A stretch of 64,000 bases of DNA from Alphaproteobacteria bacterium (GCA_026126165.1 JAHCJR010000006.1:1-64000), one strand, 5' to 3'; shown: positions 15,187 to 59,432, counted from the stretch's first letter. Notes: generated by a model not told the origin, from the letters alone. Numbers and translations are program-made.

Positions 15187-15825
15187 TCAAGGTAAATGAC
15201 CGGCATCGCCTGTCGGTGTGGAATAATCGCCATGTTGCGGCCATCGTATGGCGCGCGGGATGTCGACATGAGCCATGAACTCCCAGTTCGGCTTTCCGTT
15301 CGGCAGCAGGATGCCTACGATCTGGAGCCCCTGAATGCGCCCGTGCTTCATTGCGGGGATGAGGTCTGTATCCGCGCCCAGAACAGCGACCCTGCTCACG
15401 CTGCGACTGGCCGCCAGAGTGGCGATATCCAGTCCGATGCGCATATCGACGCCTTTCTGCTCGAAAACCGGGCTGAAATCTGAATCCTGGAGCCCGGAGC
15501 CACCACCAATCGGAATACTGTTCGGGCGCCAGCCTCTGAATTTCAGCACCCCACGCCGGACAGCGAACAGCTTGCGTCGTCCCAGATCGTGCAACCATTT
15601 GTCCGATCCGGCAAATTCCGTGGTCTCGCCGGAGACCGGCAGGGTGACCTTGCCGCTGAACGGGGCGCAGTCATAGTAAAGAACACGGTACAGCTCCTCA
15701 TCCAGGCTGGCGCAGAGTACCGCGATTTTCTCGATGAAGTTTGGATTGTACCTGTATCGGGCCCTCTCGGCAGACTTGCGCAGATAGCCGCCGTCGATCA
15801 GTACCGCGATTCTTGTCTTGCTCAT
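15187..15825 (-). CDS. NYN-domain (LabA/DUF88-type) putative ribonuclease
   Basis: Protein of 212 residues with the PIN-like NYN fold: IAVLIDGGYLRK at the N-terminus (first acidic residue), DEELYRVLYYDCAPF, KGVDMRIGLDIATLAAS and VLGADTDLIPAMKHGRIQG with further acidic residues. The family comprises metal-dependent RNases and regulatory proteins. The start is ATG 15825; upstream in-frame sequence is not conserved in character. Local GC is lower than in neighbouring genes. It lies 188 bp downstream of the ECF sigma gene on the same strand, so read-through is possible. Confidence 0.85.
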   Translation of the reverse strand: MSKTRIAVLIDGGYLRKSAERARYRYNPNFIEKIAVLCASLDEELYRVLYYDCAPFSGKVTLPVSGETTEFAGSDKWLHDLGRRKLFAVRRGVLKFRGWRPNSIPIGGGSGLQDSDFSPVFEQKGVDMRIGLDIATLAASRSVSRVAVLGADTDLIPAMKHGRIQGLQIVGILLPNGKPNWEFMAHVDIPRAIRWPQHGDYSTPTGDAGHLP

Positions 15826-16013
15826 GCAAGGGGTCCGATGCCGTTCCAATGCACCAAGAGCCCCCGCTCCTGAAAAACAGAGCCTCCGCCAGTCGCCCGG
15901 CGGAGGCCCCGCTCCATACATGCCTACTTTGAGGCCGTCGAATGTAGACCTAAATCCTAATCTTGCCAGACCGGAGCGTCAAGCCGGCGGCAAGGCGGCG
16001 CCCGTCTCCCAGC

Positions 16014-18456: not shown

Positions 18457-18606
18457 CCCTCACCCCGACCCTCTCCCACATTGTGGGAGAGGGAGTAGCG
18501 GCGTGCCCTCTCCCTCTGGGAGAGGGTCAGGTGAGGGGGAGCAAAAAGAGCCCTCTCCCACGCAAGTGGGCTTGAGCCGCGAAGCGGATCGAGTGGTTGG
18601 GTGAGG
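18457..18606. repeat. Palindromic intergenic repeat, copy 2 (compound)
   Basis: Three nested hairpin blocks between convergent rlmN and the 18623 gene: CTCTCCCACATTGTGGGAGAG, then CCCTCTCCCTCTGGGAGAGGG, then a block ending in the GCTTGAGCCGCGAAGCGG module and GGTTGGGTGAGGG. The last module is the reverse complement of that in copy 1. Its position after two converging genes suits a bidirectional terminator role. Confidence 0.8.
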
Positions 18607-30732: not shown

Positions 30733-31190
30733 TCAGATCAGGATCGCGCCTTCGAGGCGGAGCAGGAAGCTCTTGGTCTCGACGCCGCCCTTGCCGGAAT
30801 AGCCGCCATAGCCGCCGCCGGCCGCCATCACCCGGTGGCAGGGGATGATGATCGGGATCGGATTGGCGCCGCAGGCCTGGCCGACCGCGCGGGCAACCGA
30901 ACCCGTCCGCCGCGCCAGTTCGCCATAGGTCTCGGTCCGGCCATAGCCGATATCGCGCATCGCCTGCCAGACGGCCTGCTCGTGCGGCGGACCTTCCGGG
31001 GCCAGCGGCAGATCAAAATGCCGCCGCCTTCCGGCGAAATAGTCTTCGAGCTGGCGCAGGGCTTCGGCGAGAAGCGGGTCGTCGCCTTCGGGCGCCGGCG
31101 CGGACCAGTCGAGCGCGCGGATGGCGCCCGCGGAGACGCTCACCGTGAGCGGCCCGAGCGGGCTCTTCATGGTGCGCCGGGCGGGGCCGT

Positions 31191-31194
<4 letters not shown>
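30733..31194 (-). CDS. ogt: Methylated-DNA-protein cysteine methyltransferase
   Basis: Suicidal DNA-repair protein (153 residues) that takes alkyl groups from O6-alkylguanine onto the Cys of the PCHRV motif (IIPCHRVMAAGG). The helix-turn-helix region YGELARRTGSVARAVGQACG is present. There is no Ada-type regulatory domain, so Ogt is the better name. Its start overlaps the stop of the upstream DUF255 gene (ATGA). Confidence 0.95.
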
Positions 31195-33230
<2,036 letters not shown>

Positions 33231-33296
33231 GCAAGGTCCGCGCTGGTTCTGTTAGGGTCTGGGCAGCCTAACGGCGGTGCTCCAGGGAGACCAGAT

Positions 33297-41763: not shown

Positions 41764-42573
41764 TCAGCCCGCGGTCTGCCGCCGGAAGAACACGCCGAGC
41801 GCCTGGCGGATATTCTGCGCCAGCTCGCTGGCGAGCCGGGCGCGGGTGTCCCGCTCGGCGGCGATATTGCCGTAATCGGCCGGCAGGATGTTGTAGGCGC
41901 TGATCGCGCGCGAACGTCCGCTATAGACCGTCTCCTCGCTGCGCCAGTCCTCGAGCCGGTAGACCGCGACCATCTGGATGGAGATGCGCGTCGCATCGTC
42001 GGTCACGCTGATGATCGAACTCTGCCGATACTCCGTCACCTCGATCTTGAGACGGTAGAGCGGCTCCTTCGGCTTGCCCCGTGGCGCCAGGTTGTCCTGC
42101 AGCGCGTTGCGGATGAGCTGGCCGACCCGCTCGCCGCCGGTGGTGGTGGTGAGCAGCCGCTCGCGCGCCTCGATCTCGACCTTGACCGGATCGATGACGA
42201 CCCGCTCCATCTGCGCCGGCGTCCCGCCGGCAGGCGCGCCGATCCGTCCATGCAGCGGCTCGTAGCCGCAAGCGGCGAGAAGCAGCAAGGGCAAGAGCAG
42301 CAACACTCCGCGCCGCCCCTCACCCAACCCTCTCCCCGGCGGGGAGAGGGTCTCACCTGGCCGTTGCCCCTCACCCAACCCTCTCCCCGCCGGGAAGAGG
42401 GTCTCACCTGGCCGTTGCCCCTCACCCAACCCTCTCCCCGGCGGGGAGAGGGCTGCATCGCGCTGTCGCCCCTCACCAGGCCCCATCCCGGAGGGAGAGG
42501 GATCGTTCGTCTCCCCCTCCCGCATGCGGGAGAGGGTCGGGGTGAGGGAAGGCCGGAGCCGCATCGCCGTCAC
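41764..42573 (-). CDS. lptE: LPS assembly lipoprotein LptE, with in-frame repeat insertion at N-terminus
   Basis: LptE plugs the LptD barrel and helps place LPS in the outer membrane. The conserved part starts with [20 protein letters not shown] (lipobox LAAC) and continues to FFRRQTAG, about 185 residues. The frame, however, begins at GTG 42573, which overlaps the leuS stop (GTGA). About 80 extra residues from repeat copy 4, including three 17-residue units such as [17 protein letters not shown], separate that start (MTAMRLR) from the signal sequence. Either the long form is made and the signal is internal, or translation restarts near the signal (a GTG at the V of RRGV has GAGGGG 9 nt upstream, but would lose the Arg pair). 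Gene identity is good; the true start is open. Confidence 0.85.
42315..42551. repeat. Palindromic repeat, copy 4: 51-bp tandem array inside lptE
   Basis: Three tandem 51-bp units, each holding CCCTCACCCAACCCTCTCCC plus a CGGCGGGGAGAGGG arm, then two diverged hairpins ending GTCGGGGTGAGGG. The unit length is a multiple of three, so the lptE reading frame stays open through the whole array. Confidence 0.9.
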
Positions 42574-47962: not shown

Positions 47963-49717
<1,755 letters not shown>

Positions 49718-49742: not shown

Positions 49743-49780
49743 ACCCTCTCCCACGCAAGTGGGAGAGGGCAGGGTGAGGG
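49743..49780. repeat. Palindromic intergenic repeat, copy 5
   Basis: The simplest copy: ACCCTCTCCCACGCAAGTGG with GAGAGGG and GGGTGAGGG. It lies 26 bp after the leuA stop, a terminator-like position. Confidence 0.8.
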
Positions 49781-49870: not shown

Positions 49871-49889
49871 CCCGCAGTTGACCTGCGGG
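49871..49889. promoter_or_regulatory. Inverted repeat upstream of the SAHH-like cassette
   Basis: Perfect 7-bp repeat CCCGCAG-TTGAC-CTGCGGG. A TTGACC -35-like hexamer (49878-49883) begins in its loop, with GATACT (49899-49904) at a short 15-bp spacing. It could be an operator over a promoter, or a hairpin. The remaining sequence to 50009 holds no gene that I can support. Confidence 0.4.
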
Positions 49890-50009
49890 CACGGTCATGA
49901 TACTTAATGGATCAGTCTTGGGCGGCACTGATATCGCTTCGAGACACATCACGGGGGCATCCGCGGAGCTGCGGAGTTGTCGTCTGCGGCAACCACAAGG
50001 GGTCGCCCC

Positions 50010-51332
50010 GTGAGACTTGAGCCGCCGTCCCAGCACTTGCAAGGTTCCGAATTCTTTCCCCTGGCCACTCCGGCGCCAGCAGCACCATCCGTTGCGACCG
50101 ATCCGGGAGCAAGCGAACGCGGCGAGCAAAAAATTCTCACCGCATCCTTGGAAATGCGGGGCTTGACGCACATTCAAAGCCAGTACGAGACTGGGAAGCC
50201 CCTCCGTGATGTCGCGATTCTGGGCTGCGTGACCGTTACGCCGCAAACAGCACAGTACATTCTGGCACTACGCGCCCTCGGCGCATCGTTGAGTTGGTGC
50301 AGCGACAATCAATATGCCAGCGATCCCGACGTCGTCGCGTATCTAAGAGACCAAGGGATCCCTGTATTCGCCAAGGCCAACATGTCAACTGAAGAGTACT
50401 TCGGCTGCATGGACCTCGCAATCGATCACCTCGATCAGAAAACCAGACTCCACGTCAATGACGACGGCTGCGACATTACCCGTCACATACTCGAAACTCA
50501 GCCCGACAAGCTCGCACGCATCGATGCGCTCGTTGAGCAAACCACCTGCGGCGCCAATGCACTCAAAAATCTTTACCGGAGAAAGCTCCTGTCTTTCCCC
50601 GCCATTGACGTCAATGGGGCTTTCCTCAAAGGTTTTGACAATTACTACGGAACCCAGCAATCAGTCCTCCACGCCCTCACAAACATCGGTATCACGATCG
50701 CAAGCCGTCAAATTGCTATTGTTGGCTACGGGTCCGTGGGCCAGGGCGTTGCACGTGCATTGAGAGCCGTCGGCGCCTCAATTGGCATCGTCGAAGCCGA
50801 TCTTCTTAAGCTCGCGCGGGCTGCATGGGACGGATATCAACCGATGTCGATCGTCGATGCACTTGGCGAATGCGACCTGATACTGACCGCCAGCGGCTGT
50901 GCGCCAACAATAACCGGCCATATGATCCATACATTCGCCCGGAACGGGCTAATTCTCGGTAATATTGGTCACGGCAACGGCGAATACGACATCGAATGGC
51001 TCTCTCAGCATCCGCATTCGACAATCAATTCCCACCGAACGGCGTATCGGCTTGCCGACGGCAGAACCGTTCACTCGCTTTGCGGCGGCGCATTGCTGAA
51101 CTTCCGGGCTGGCGCCGCAAATCCGTCCCATGTGATGAGCCTTACTTTCTCTCTCTGCTTGCTCGCGCACATCGCTGTCGTCAGAGAGCCTCGCAAGTTC
51201 GCCCAGCCCACATTGCATGAGGTCGGTGAAGCCGCCGAGCGGGAATGTGCCGAATTTCACTTTCCGAGTTTAAGTCGGAAACTCTACAAGCTTTCTGACC
51301 AACAACGTCAGTACTTGGCGCTAGACGCATGA
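50010..51332 (+). CDS. Divergent S-adenosylhomocysteine hydrolase-like protein
   Basis: Protein of 440 residues with the SAHH fold: substrate-side HVNDDGCDITRHILETQPDK, QTTCGANALKNLYR, FPAIDVNGAFLKGFDNYYGT, Rossmann loop IVGYGSVGQGVARALRAVGA, and LILGNIGHGNGEYDIEWL. Canonical SAHH reads NDSVTKSKFDN where this has NGAFLKGFDN, one residue shorter between the Lys and Asp that bind substrate. It also ends LALDA instead of the KPDHYRY tail that completes the NAD site of the neighbouring subunit. So it probably binds NAD but may act on another substrate. GTG 50010 has AAGGGG 7 nt upstream; TTG 49977 is an alternative. Three 60-bp lines counted by hand are 47, 52 and 58% GC, against 68% for a line of leuA, suggesting transfer. 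Its stop overlaps the GNAT start. Confidence 0.8.
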   Translation: MRLEPPSQHLQGSEFFPLATPAPAAPSVATDPGASERGEQKILTASLEMRGLTHIQSQYETGKPLRDVAILGCVTVTPQTAQYILALRALGASLSWCSDNQYASDPDVVAYLRDQGIPVFAKANMSTEEYFGCMDLAIDHLDQKTRLHVNDDGCDITRHILETQPDKLARIDALVEQTTCGANALKNLYRRKLLSFPAIDVNGAFLKGFDNYYGTQQSVLHALTNIGITIASRQIAIVGYGSVGQGVARALRAVGASIGIVEADLLKLARAAWDGYQPMSIVDALGECDLILTASGCAPTITGHMIHTFARNGLILGNIGHGNGEYDIEWLSQHPHSTINSHRTAYRLADGRTVHSLCGGALLNFRAGAANPSHVMSLTFSLCLLAHIAVVREPRKFAQPTLHEVGEAAERECAEFHFPSLSRKLYKLSDQQRQYLALDA

Positions 51333-52120
51333 CCCGCATCGTCGAACATCGCGACCCAGCCGAACTCGCAGCCTGGCTCGAAACAGATGTGGCAATGAAC
51401 ATCTTCGGCCTGTGCGACCTCGACCCTGCGGAGCGTCCTCACACGCGGTGGCTCGGGCTGGAGGAAGAAGGACAACTGGCCGCCCTGCTGCTCGTCTACA
51501 CGCGCCTCGACCTCCCCCTCGTACTGCTGCATGGCCCGCCCGCCGAGGCGTGCAAGATGCTCGAACAATGTCTGGACCTGTTGCCGGAGAGATTTCATCT
51601 CTCGGTGCCGCAGCCTCTCGACCGGAAGCTTTCGCTCCCCTCTGCCAGATTCGAGCATCGTGTCGACTACTTCCGCATGACGCCGACCAGTCCCGCCGGG
51701 CGGCGATGGACTCGGCCAGAACTGTGCCCACTCGGCATCGAGCATGCCGGCATCATGCGGGGTCTCCTGTACGACCATGACGCCTACGGCGACGCCTGGT
51801 TCAGCGATGACCTCCTTCATTCCGGCCTGTATCGCGGCTGGATCGAGAATGGCGAGCTGCTTGGCGCCATTGGCGTCCATGCCGTTTCCGGGAATTACCG
51901 TGTTGCCGCCACCGGCAACCTCGCGGTGCGACCCGACCAGAGAGGCCGGGGCATCGCCCGCATGCTCAAGGAGGGCCTGCTCGCGGAACTCAATGAGCGA
52001 GGCTGGCGCAGCGCGTTCAATGTCCGTTCCGACAATCGTCAGGCTCTCGCCTTCCATGCGAGACTTGGATGCCACGTCGCCGGGACGCTGAGAGAGTATG
52101 TCGTGACCCGCACCCTCTGA
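51329..52120 (+). CDS. GNAT-family N-acyltransferase
   Basis: Protein of 263 residues. The C-terminal half is a GNAT domain with the acetyl-CoA loop VRPDQRGRGIARMLKEGLLA and NVRSDNRQALAFHARLGCHV. The N-terminal 130 residues (with NIFGLCDLDPAERPHTRWLG) resemble the extra domain of two-part GNAT proteins. ATG 51329 overlaps the SAHH-like stop (ATGA), so the two products are made together and probably share a pathway. Acyl donor and acceptor are unknown. Confidence 0.85.
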   Translation: MTRIVEHRDPAELAAWLETDVAMNIFGLCDLDPAERPHTRWLGLEEEGQLAALLLVYTRLDLPLVLLHGPPAEACKMLEQCLDLLPERFHLSVPQPLDRKLSLPSARFEHRVDYFRMTPTSPAGRRWTRPELCPLGIEHAGIMRGLLYDHDAYGDAWFSDDLLHSGLYRGWIENGELLGAIGVHAVSGNYRVAATGNLAVRPDQRGRGIARMLKEGLLAELNERGWRSAFNVRSDNRQALAFHARLGCHVAGTLREYVVTRTL

Positions 52121-52155
52121 GTCGGGCCCGCGAGCCAGATCACGAACGGCCGTCA

Positions 52156-53367
52156 ATGCATCCCCGACTGAGCGCCCTGCGCGAACCGCGCTTCCGCCGC
52201 ATCTGGATCGCGCACGCCATCTCGCTCACCGGCACCTGGATGCAGAATCTGGCCCTGCCCTGGCTCGCCTATCTTCTGACCGGCAGCCCGCTCCTGCTCG
52301 GCCTGATCGGCGCGGCGCAGGCCCTTCCCGTCACCATCCTCTCGCCCTTCGCCGGCGCCATGAGCGACCGGATGCACAGGCGCACGCTGCTCATCGTCAC
52401 CCAGAGCCTTCTCATGGCAAGTTCCGCGCTGCTCGCCATGCTCGTCTTCGCCGATGCGATCACCTATACGGCCCTCTTCTGCATCGCGCTCTTCATCGGC
52501 CTCGCCAATGCCTTCGACTATTCGGCGCGCCAGGTCCTCACTGCCGATCTCGTCCATCCCGATCACCTGACCAGCGCCATCGCGCTGAACGCGGCGACCT
52601 TCAGCGCCGCCCGCGTGATCGGTCCGGCCATCGCCGGCGCCGTGATGATCACGGCCGGCATCGGCTGGTGCTTCGCCATCAACGCACTGAGCTTCATTCC
52701 GTTTCTTGCCGGCATCGCCGCGCTTGCCCCCGCACCGGCCGCCGCCGCCGGAGCCTCGGCGGCGCCGGGCTACTGGGCGATGTTCGGCGAGGGTCTGCGC
52801 TATCTGCGCGGGCGCCCGGAGATCCGCGATCTGCTGCTGATGGTCGCGATGATGGGCATACTGGCGTTCAACCTCTCCGTCTTTCTGCCCGTGCTGCTCA
52901 CCGAAACATTCGGGCTGGGCGAATCCGCCTATGGCCTGCTGATCTCGAGCTTCGGGCTGGGCTCCCTGCTTTCCGCCCTTGCGCTTGCCGTCACCGATGT
53001 CGGACGACGGCAGGGGCAGCTTCTCGACCTGCTCCCACTGGCAAGCGGGCTGCTCTTCCTCGCCATCTCGCAGGCGCCCTCGTTCCTTCTTCTGGCCGGC
53101 CTCGCGGCCGGCCTCGGTTTCGCCAATCTCACCTTCTTCACCCTGGCAAATTCCCGCCTGCAAGCCCTGTCCGAGCCGGCCTATCGCGGACGGATGACCG
53201 GCTTCTATGTTCTCGGATTCGCCGGCATGACGCCGGTCGGAAATCTCCTCGCCGGCGCTCTGGTCGAGCGACTTGGCATCGGCGTTTCCCTTCTCGCGAC
53301 AGGTGCGGCCCTGATCCTCGGCAACCTCCTCATCAGGCTCGCCCGGCGCAGGCCGCCGCCCGCCTGA
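52156..53367 (+). CDS. MFS exporter (EntS/DHA3-like)
   Basis: Twelve-span transporter of 403 residues. N-terminal RFRRIWIAHAISLTGTWMQN, the loop-2/3 motif AGAMSDRMHRRTLLIVTQSL and FDYSARQVLTADLVHPDHLT are typical of the MFS_3 (DHA3) group, which exports siderophores, macrolides and other small molecules. ATG 52156 begins 35 bp after the GNAT stop, so it may be the third gene of the SAHH-like/GNAT cassette, exporting its product. Its GC content looks like the genome average. Confidence 0.88.
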   Translation: MHPRLSALREPRFRRIWIAHAISLTGTWMQNLALPWLAYLLTGSPLLLGLIGAAQALPVTILSPFAGAMSDRMHRRTLLIVTQSLLMASSALLAMLVFADAITYTALFCIALFIGLANAFDYSARQVLTADLVHPDHLTSAIALNAATFSAARVIGPAIAGAVMITAGIGWCFAINALSFIPFLAGIAALAPAPAAAAGASAAPGYWAMFGEGLRYLRGRPEIRDLLLMVAMMGILAFNLSVFLPVLLTETFGLGESAYGLLISSFGLGSLLSALALAVTDVGRRQGQLLDLLPLASGLLFLAISQAPSFLLLAGLAAGLGFANLTFFTLANSRLQALSEPAYRGRMTGFYVLGFAGMTPVGNLLAGALVERLGIGVSLLATGAALILGNLLIRLARRRPPPA

Positions 53368-53444: not shown

Positions 53445-54152
53445 ATGACGGTCAGCGCCAGCGAAATCTCGCTCAAATCCCATGACGGCGGCACCTTCAT
53501 GGGCTATCTCGCCCGGCCGAAATCAGGCGCGGGGCCGGGCATCGTCGTCATCCAGGAAATCTTCGGCGTGAACCAGGTCATGCGCGACATCTGCGACGGC
53601 CTCGCCGCGCAGGGCTATTTCGCGCTCTGCCCCGATCTCTTCTGGCGCCAGGAGCCGGGCATCCAGATCACCGACCGGACGGAAGCCGAGTGGGCGCGCG
53701 CTTTCGAGCTGTTCAAGGGCTTCGATCTCGAACATGGCGTCAAGGATCTCGCCGCCGCGCTTGCCGCGCTGCGCAAGGTGCCGGGCTGCACCGGCAAGGC
53801 CGGCGCCGTCGGCTATTGCCTCGGCGGCCGGCTCGCCTATCTGATGGCGGCGCGCACCGATGTGGATGCCGCCGTCGGCTATTACGGCGTGGCGCTCGAT
53901 GCCCATCTCGGCGAGGCGGGCAATATCCGCCGGCCGCTCCTGCTGCATGTGGCGGAGAAGGACCAGTTCGTGCCGGTCGAGGCGCGCGATGCGATCATCG
54001 CGGCGCTGAAGGGTCATCCGCGCGTCACCATCCATGTCTATGCCGGGCAGGATCATGCCTTCGCCCGCGTCGGCGGCAAGCATTACGACAAGGCAAGCGC
54101 CGATCTCGCCAACCAGCGGACGGCGGATTTCTTCCGGGCCAACCTGGCCTGA
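53445..54152 (+). CDS. Dienelactone hydrolase family protein
   Basis: Alpha/beta hydrolase of 235 residues. The catalytic triad is visible as Cys125 (GYCLGG), Asp173 (AEKDQFVP) and His204 (GQDHAF). Family members open lactone rings in aromatic degradation, though many have other ester substrates. No other catabolic genes are nearby. A quinone oxidoreductase follows after 42 bp on the same strand. Confidence 0.92.
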   Translation: MTVSASEISLKSHDGGTFMGYLARPKSGAGPGIVVIQEIFGVNQVMRDICDGLAAQGYFALCPDLFWRQEPGIQITDRTEAEWARAFELFKGFDLEHGVKDLAAALAALRKVPGCTGKAGAVGYCLGGRLAYLMAARTDVDAAVGYYGVALDAHLGEAGNIRRPLLLHVAEKDQFVPVEARDAIIAALKGHPRVTIHVYAGQDHAFARVGGKHYDKASADLANQRTADFFRANLA

Positions 54153-59288: not shown

Positions 59289-59432
59289 CTCGCTCCCGCC
59301 CTCACCCCAGCCTTCTTCCGGGGGGAGCGAGTCCCGTCCGAAACCCTCACCCAACCCTCTCCCGCAAGCGGGAGTGGGCTTCTTCTCCCTCTCCCGCATC
59401 GCGGGACAGAGCTGGGGTGAGGGTGGCGCCGC
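59289..59432. repeat. Palindromic intergenic repeat, copy 8 (compound)
   Basis: Three hairpins between hemE and hemH: CTCGCTCCC/GGGGGGAGCGAG, CCCTCTCCCGCAAGCGGGAG, and CTCTCCCGCATCGCGGGA, ending GCTGGGGTGAGGG. It fills almost all of the hemE-hemH gap, so hemH transcription must pass through it. Confidence 0.82.

Follow-up and report, generated by a model that had tools for sequence, protein, structure and literature searches.

The question raised by this locus is whether three neighbouring genes of foreign appearance, found in an alphaproteobacterial genome, form a pathway that makes and exports a small molecule. The locus spans 49871 to 53367 of the window, by which we mean the whole 64,000-nucleotide stretch of Alphaproteobacteria bacterium DNA that was analysed (GCA_026126165.1, JAHCJR010000006.1:1-64000). 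This window is contig C118 of an assembly of 3.4 Mb in 161 contigs that is 81% complete. A first reading made from the sequence alone (the sequence-only reading) had seen in these genes a protein resembling S-adenosylhomocysteine (SAH) hydrolase (SAHH), a GNAT acyltransferase and an exporter. We find that the gene set is real, foreign-looking and overlapping, and that it includes an unusually altered SAHH homologue, here called SAHHL. Our preferred interpretation, to which we give a probability of roughly one in three, is that the trio is a horizontally acquired operon in which SAHHL acts as a nicotinamide adenine dinucleotide (NAD+)-dependent adenine-nucleoside oxidase or eliminase instead of a hydrolase, and thereby feeds acylation and export. 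Any particular product of SAHHL is less probable than this. That such a pathway would be an undescribed one, as the sequence-only reading had proposed, is something we infer.

A divergent SAHH homologue in a genome with an ordinary one

The first gene encodes SAHHL, a divergent SAHH-like protein of 440 amino acids (50010 to 51332, + strand), which was assigned from Pfam and NCBIfam profiles, PDB alignments and an alignment with 46 SAHHs. Its start is probably the GTG at 50010, with a Shine-Dalgarno-like AAGGGG in the sequence 7 nt 5' of it (49997 to 50002, + strand); the TTG at 49977 is merely the mechanical first start codon of this frame in the list of open reading frames (ORFs). The stop codon of SAHHL (TGA, 51330-51332) is overlapped as ATGA by the ATG of the second gene, which encodes a GNAT acyltransferase of 263 amino acids (51329 to 52120, + strand). 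This junction, already pointed out in the sequence-only reading, is confirmed by the ORF coordinates and Pfam matches and suggests translational coupling of the two genes. The third gene begins 35 bp after the GNAT stop, at the ATG at 52156, and encodes an MFS_3/MFS_1 transporter of 403 amino acids (52156 to 53367, + strand); both downstream genes were assigned from their ORFs and from Pfam and NCBIfam matches.

Over its whole length SAHHL has the two-domain architecture of SAHH/AHCY (PF05221 plus PF00670, TIGR00936), with Pfam matches to AdoHcyase (E 5e-39) and AdoHcyase_NAD (E 1e-25), an NAD fold and 31-33% identity to SAHHs. Such full-length homology is what would be seen in an ordinary SAH or S-inosylhomocysteine hydrolase that had simply diverged, yet we consider this explanation scarcely probable. 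SAHHL falls below the equivalog cut-offs for adenosylhomocysteinase, far below in the case of TIGR00936 (278.2 bits versus 497.6; NF004005, 273.3 versus 275), and its closest matches are SAHHs with identities of no more than 33% and scores of up to 215 bits, or 221 bits among PDB entries, all of which, where aligned, have an ordinary active site. The motif HxTxQ/E marks specificity for SAH (PMC13406329); SAHHL reads T-V-T-P-Q at this place, which preserves the residues in contact with adenine N1 and N6 but not the catalytic histidine. S-inosyl-L-homocysteine hydrolase (PDB 7r3a) belongs to the same superfamily, but its motif is HxExK as opposed to TxTxQ in SAHHL, and it scores 124 bits versus 221 for the best-scoring SAHH in the PDB. 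Moreover, His55 and Glu156 (human SAHH numbering throughout), both kept in 46 of 46 compared SAHHs, are replaced in SAHHL, and these natural H55T and E156Q replacements make ordinary SAH hydrolysis unlikely. Together with the sub-equivalog scores, they support the earlier suspicion that SAHHL may not process SAH.

The genome already holds a normal SAHH on contig C121 (Pfam 475 bits), and the methyl cycle therefore does not depend on SAHHL. A maximum-likelihood tree of 47 proteins puts SAHHL between a pair consisting of a Paenibacillus SAHH and an SAHH from a phage record, on one side, and all other SAHHs on the other, on the longest branch of the tree, which is saturated. The tree program warned that this placement is unsure, and we take the position to show extreme divergence, not ancestry. 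One finding that the sequence-only reading had named as speaking against it was that SAHHL groups with ordinary SAHHs and is the sole copy in the genome; the ordinary SAHH on C121 and the placement, if unsure, of SAHHL outside the main SAHH body both tell against this. Separately, an N-terminal fragment of an ordinary SAHH, distinct from the C121 copy, runs off the end of contig C159 (L117 1-453, G000), possibly as a result of an assembly split, a duplication or contamination.

Residues lost and kept in the active site

Compared with the aligned SAHHs, SAHHL carries the changes H55T, C79D, E156Q, C195T, F302G, D303N and H353N. His55, Glu156 and His353 are invariant in the comparison set (46/46) and are Thr, Gln and Asn in SAHHL. 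The water of the Michael addition is activated by His55 as the general base; the residue acting at C4' is Asp131 and that acting at O3' is Lys186 (PMC4647836). His353 touches adenine through its main chain (PMC4647836), and thus Asn at this position may be tolerable. The His301-Phe302 pair has become His-Gly. Retained are T57, Q59, D131, T157, N181, K186, D190, N191, E243, H301 and N346, along with the GxGxxG motif. A shortened substrate loop, claimed from the sequence alone, reduces to the deletion of a single residue in the hinge (KSKFDN to KG-FDN). The C-terminal NAD tail (Lys426, Tyr430), which in SAHH lies over the NAD of the neighbouring subunit, is indeed missing in the alignments, as had been said. 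Its loss is not proof of lost function, because the SAHHs from Paenibacillus and from a faecal-phage record (L060, L061) are also without it.

Among 105 near-invariant alignment columns, the set serving hydride transfer, NAD binding and the C4' base, which we drew up in part with what is generally known of the family, retains 16 of 18 residues and the remaining columns keep 45 of 87 (Fisher p = 0.0036, for a partition chosen after the losses were known; p = 0.083 if H55, E156 and H353 are added as catalytic). This distribution suggests that the redox function of SAHHL may be under selection. The residue pattern as a whole moderately favours a retained oxidation chemistry without normal hydrolysis, and to the same degree speaks against plain decay. 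The absence of His55 and Glu156, of the His-Phe pair and of the NAD tail, with the NAD fold and the adenine contacts kept, would also suit a pseudoenzyme that serves as a sensor by binding NAD and an adenine nucleoside or SAH, or that forms mixed oligomers with the host SAHH. AHCYL1/IRBIT in animals reportedly forms mixed oligomers with SAHH. We nevertheless regard a pseudoenzyme as unlikely, since Lys186, Asp190, Asn191, Asp131 and His301 are all kept, which goes beyond the needs of binding alone.

A putative route from nucleoside to export

If SAHHL has kept its oxidation chemistry, we infer for the catalysis, its substrate and outcome, and every GNAT and MFS step the following course. The substrate would be an adenine nucleoside, either adenosine or an adenosine thioether such as SAH or methylthioadenosine. 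Bound NAD+ would oxidise the 3'-OH (C3') and Asp131 would take the C4' proton; without the water-activating His55, SAHHL would halt at the elimination step or divert it, yielding a keto or 4',5'-unsaturated nucleoside, or an exchange product, in place of SAH hydrolysis. The GNAT protein would acylate an amine, either of this product or of the part that leaves, and export of the acylated compound would fall to the MFS protein.

Our literature search for SAHH-like enzymes in biosynthesis returned only AgmF, from angustmycin A biosynthesis, which does not use SAH, dehydrates a nucleoside and holds NAD+ tightly bound (PMC8599513). Like AgmF, SAHHL has kept the redox machinery and stands outside the methyl cycle; that the enzyme is not an SAH hydrolase has been shown for AgmF and is predicted for SAHHL. 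AgmF retains His56 and His299, which are thought to aid the leaving group (PMC8599513), whereas SAHHL has only His301, the first histidine being Thr, and we therefore do not class SAHHL as AgmF. The two are set apart here by the published description of AgmF, with its His56 equated to human His55 by position. None of the partner gene types of the agm genes (epimerase, pyrophosphokinase, phosphoribosyltransferase and phosphatase) adjoins SAHHL.

The single histidine of SAHHL is one of several points that weigh against the interpretation of SAHHL as an oxidase or eliminase feeding a pathway. The others are the missing NAD tail, the dependence of the residue test on how the columns are partitioned, and the poor quality of single-sequence structure models (pLDDT, the predicted local distance difference test, 40 and 37), which were not used. 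In addition, no further biosynthetic gene was recognised among the neighbours of the cassette, and the searches described below gave no relative that would show a conserved operon or the same altered residues.

The two downstream proteins are assigned to broad families. The GNAT protein matches Pfam Acetyltransf_1 over residues 157-247 only (E 1.4e-13; 51.6 bits versus a cut-off of 20.7), and its N-terminal half matches no Pfam family. The transporter exceeds the cut-off of MFS_3 (PF05977; E 7.9e-52, 176.8 bits versus 27) and has at most 37% identity to any relative found. The sequence-only reading had called it an EntS-like exporter 35 bp on; its distance and its resemblance to EntS stand, but it is not EntS, because it scores far below the cut-off of NF007792 (107.8 bits versus 324). 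A second SAHH-like copy accompanied by an acyltransferase and by a transporter whose family is of the efflux type would also suit a resistance module against nucleoside inhibitors of SAHH, in which SAHHL oxidises or traps the inhibitor, GNAT acylates it and the MFS protein exports it, and the GNAT protein is weakly similar to arsinothricin and phosphinothricin acetyltransferases. We hold this to be very unlikely, as a resistant target copy must keep SAH hydrolysis, which looks lost in SAHHL, and the GNAT protein lies far below the cut-offs of the named families (ArsN1, 23 bits versus 210).

SAHH is among the most conserved metabolic enzymes, and an enzyme that lost the water-activating histidine yet kept the redox machinery would, if this is true of SAHHL, be a rare natural dissection of the mechanism. 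If active, SAHHL would join AgmF as a case of the SAHH fold being put to use in nucleoside-tailoring chemistry, and should the three genes of the operon act together, they would be a very small route to an adenosine-derived compound. If they do not, the locus would be an example of composition and gene order suggesting a pathway beyond the support of comparative data. A bolder proposal is that SAHHL founds a new branch of the SAHH fold, in which loss of the histidine turns a hydrolase into a nucleoside oxidase or eliminase, and that the trio is a minimal undescribed pathway for an exported, acylated adenosine-derived molecule; this we think quite unlikely.

Relatives and genomic setting

Relatives of SAHHL were sought by full-protein searches within the window's phylum, covering 96 relatives first, the order (17 other genomes), a class sample of 385 and a phylum sample of 398 (overlapping; about 870 genomes in total), by tblastn against 72,556 plasmids and 50,697 phage records, by scanning 85,000 species genomes twice with 8-residue patterns, the second time with patterns directed at conserved motifs, and by four scans of viral contigs. 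The pattern choice for the viral contigs was steered by artificial rows (A1-A4, consisting of the window protein and copies randomised outside chosen motifs), which are not real sequences. SAHHL was not found in the 17 other genomes of its order, and no relative closer than the general superfamily emerged from the roughly 870 proteobacterial genomes, the plasmids, phages and viral contigs, or the 85,000-genome pattern scans, which demand an exact 8-residue match that moderately diverged relatives can escape. For the GNAT protein, searching 377 other genomes of the phylum gave nothing below E 1e-10; matches in nearer relatives were confined to weak ones to the GNAT domain, and neither plasmids nor viral contigs yielded a significant one. 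The SAHHL-GNAT pair was likewise not found elsewhere in the genomes, plasmids and viral contigs searched. Since no such relative of either protein was found, co-occurrence weighs neither for nor against a pathway, and with no second example found, the synthesis-plus-export arrangement proposed from the sequence rests on one operon in one incomplete assembly.

Two divergent SAHH paralogues, in G671 and G057 (L112 6529-7758; L113 6439-7659), were rejected as relatives of SAHHL: they keep His55, have Asn in place of Asp131 (DNGGD), score far lower and have no adjacent GNAT-MFS pair. Both also have GN for GH at His353. A tyrosinase-domain gene lies in the vicinity of one of them, and the other has a LysR regulator and a ChaC-like gene as neighbours.

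The low G+C content of the first gene, remarked on in the sequence-only reading, is borne out. SAHHL has a G+C content of 0.562 and a third-position G+C content (GC3) of 0.617, compared with a mean GC3 of 0.825 +/- 0.084 over 41 other long ORFs of the window; GC3 is 0.742 for GNAT, 0.837 for the MFS gene and 0.84-0.91 for the neighbours. This gradient fits acquisition from elsewhere of at least the SAHHL gene. The same stepwise values would also suit separate origins, and hence chance neighbours at a rearrangement point, where an acquired, decaying or drifting SAHH copy came to lie beside a generic GNAT-MFS pair for drug inactivation and efflux, without any pathway in common. The SAHHL branch being the longest in the tree agrees with such a history, as does the fact that GNAT and MFS families are common resistance tools. 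The position of the cassette points the same way. The trio is co-directional and lies between leuA (2-isopropylmalate synthase; 48026 to 49717, + strand), identified by profile match and composition, which is native, and a dienelactone-hydrolase-family (DLH) gene (53445 to 54152, + strand), identified by Pfam and by gene order in relatives, which opens a conserved DLH-QOR-rho-hem block; the flanking genes (leuA, DLH, QOR, rho and the hem genes) are housekeeping genes. This block is kept whole or in part in G002, G003 and G021, where DLH adjoins a homologue of window 30736-33251 and leuA lies elsewhere, not next to the DLH block, which places the cassette at a synteny break relative to all three. 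Against chance neighbours stand the ATGA overlap of SAHHL and GNAT, the intact frame of 440 codons and the preferential retention of redox and NAD residues, and on balance we consider this explanation possible but somewhat unlikely.

Other features of the surroundings were noted. The 31-39 kb block of the window lies beside the DLH-QOR-rho-hem block in the opposite orientation to that in G002 and G003, which implies a large inversion or rearrangement (about 30700-53400) with one end at the cassette. Another ORF with a local drop in G+C content is found at 15190-15978 (0.593, GC3 0.665; adjoining long ORFs, 0.69-0.70). Insertion by a mobile element was rejected, since none of the ORFs examined at 44-59 kb was recognisable as a transposase or integrase gene, although no scan for tRNA genes was made. 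A phage or defence origin was rejected as well, SAHHL having no PHROGs match and none of the three proteins a PADLOC match. No promoter consensus was found at the cassette, and terminator-like sites there did not exceed the chance level. A short inverted repeat with 7-bp arms precedes the cassette (CCCGCAG-TTGAC-CTGCGGG, 49871 to 49889, not assigned to a strand) and had been noted in the sequence-only reading. The window contains 118 repeats of this kind, compared with about 74 in shuffled sequences; nothing distinguishes this one from the rest, and given how common they are, it was rejected as a regulatory or insertion mark. A stronger palindrome of 11 bp, at 49744-49769, belongs to a family of dispersed repeats that recurs in the window, with the form CCCTCTCCC-loop-GGGAGAGGG. 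Members of this family lie at 18469-18527, 42328-42536, 49744-49769 and 59355-59400, mostly between genes, and many of them come with a (C)CCTCACCC or GGGTGAGGG element.

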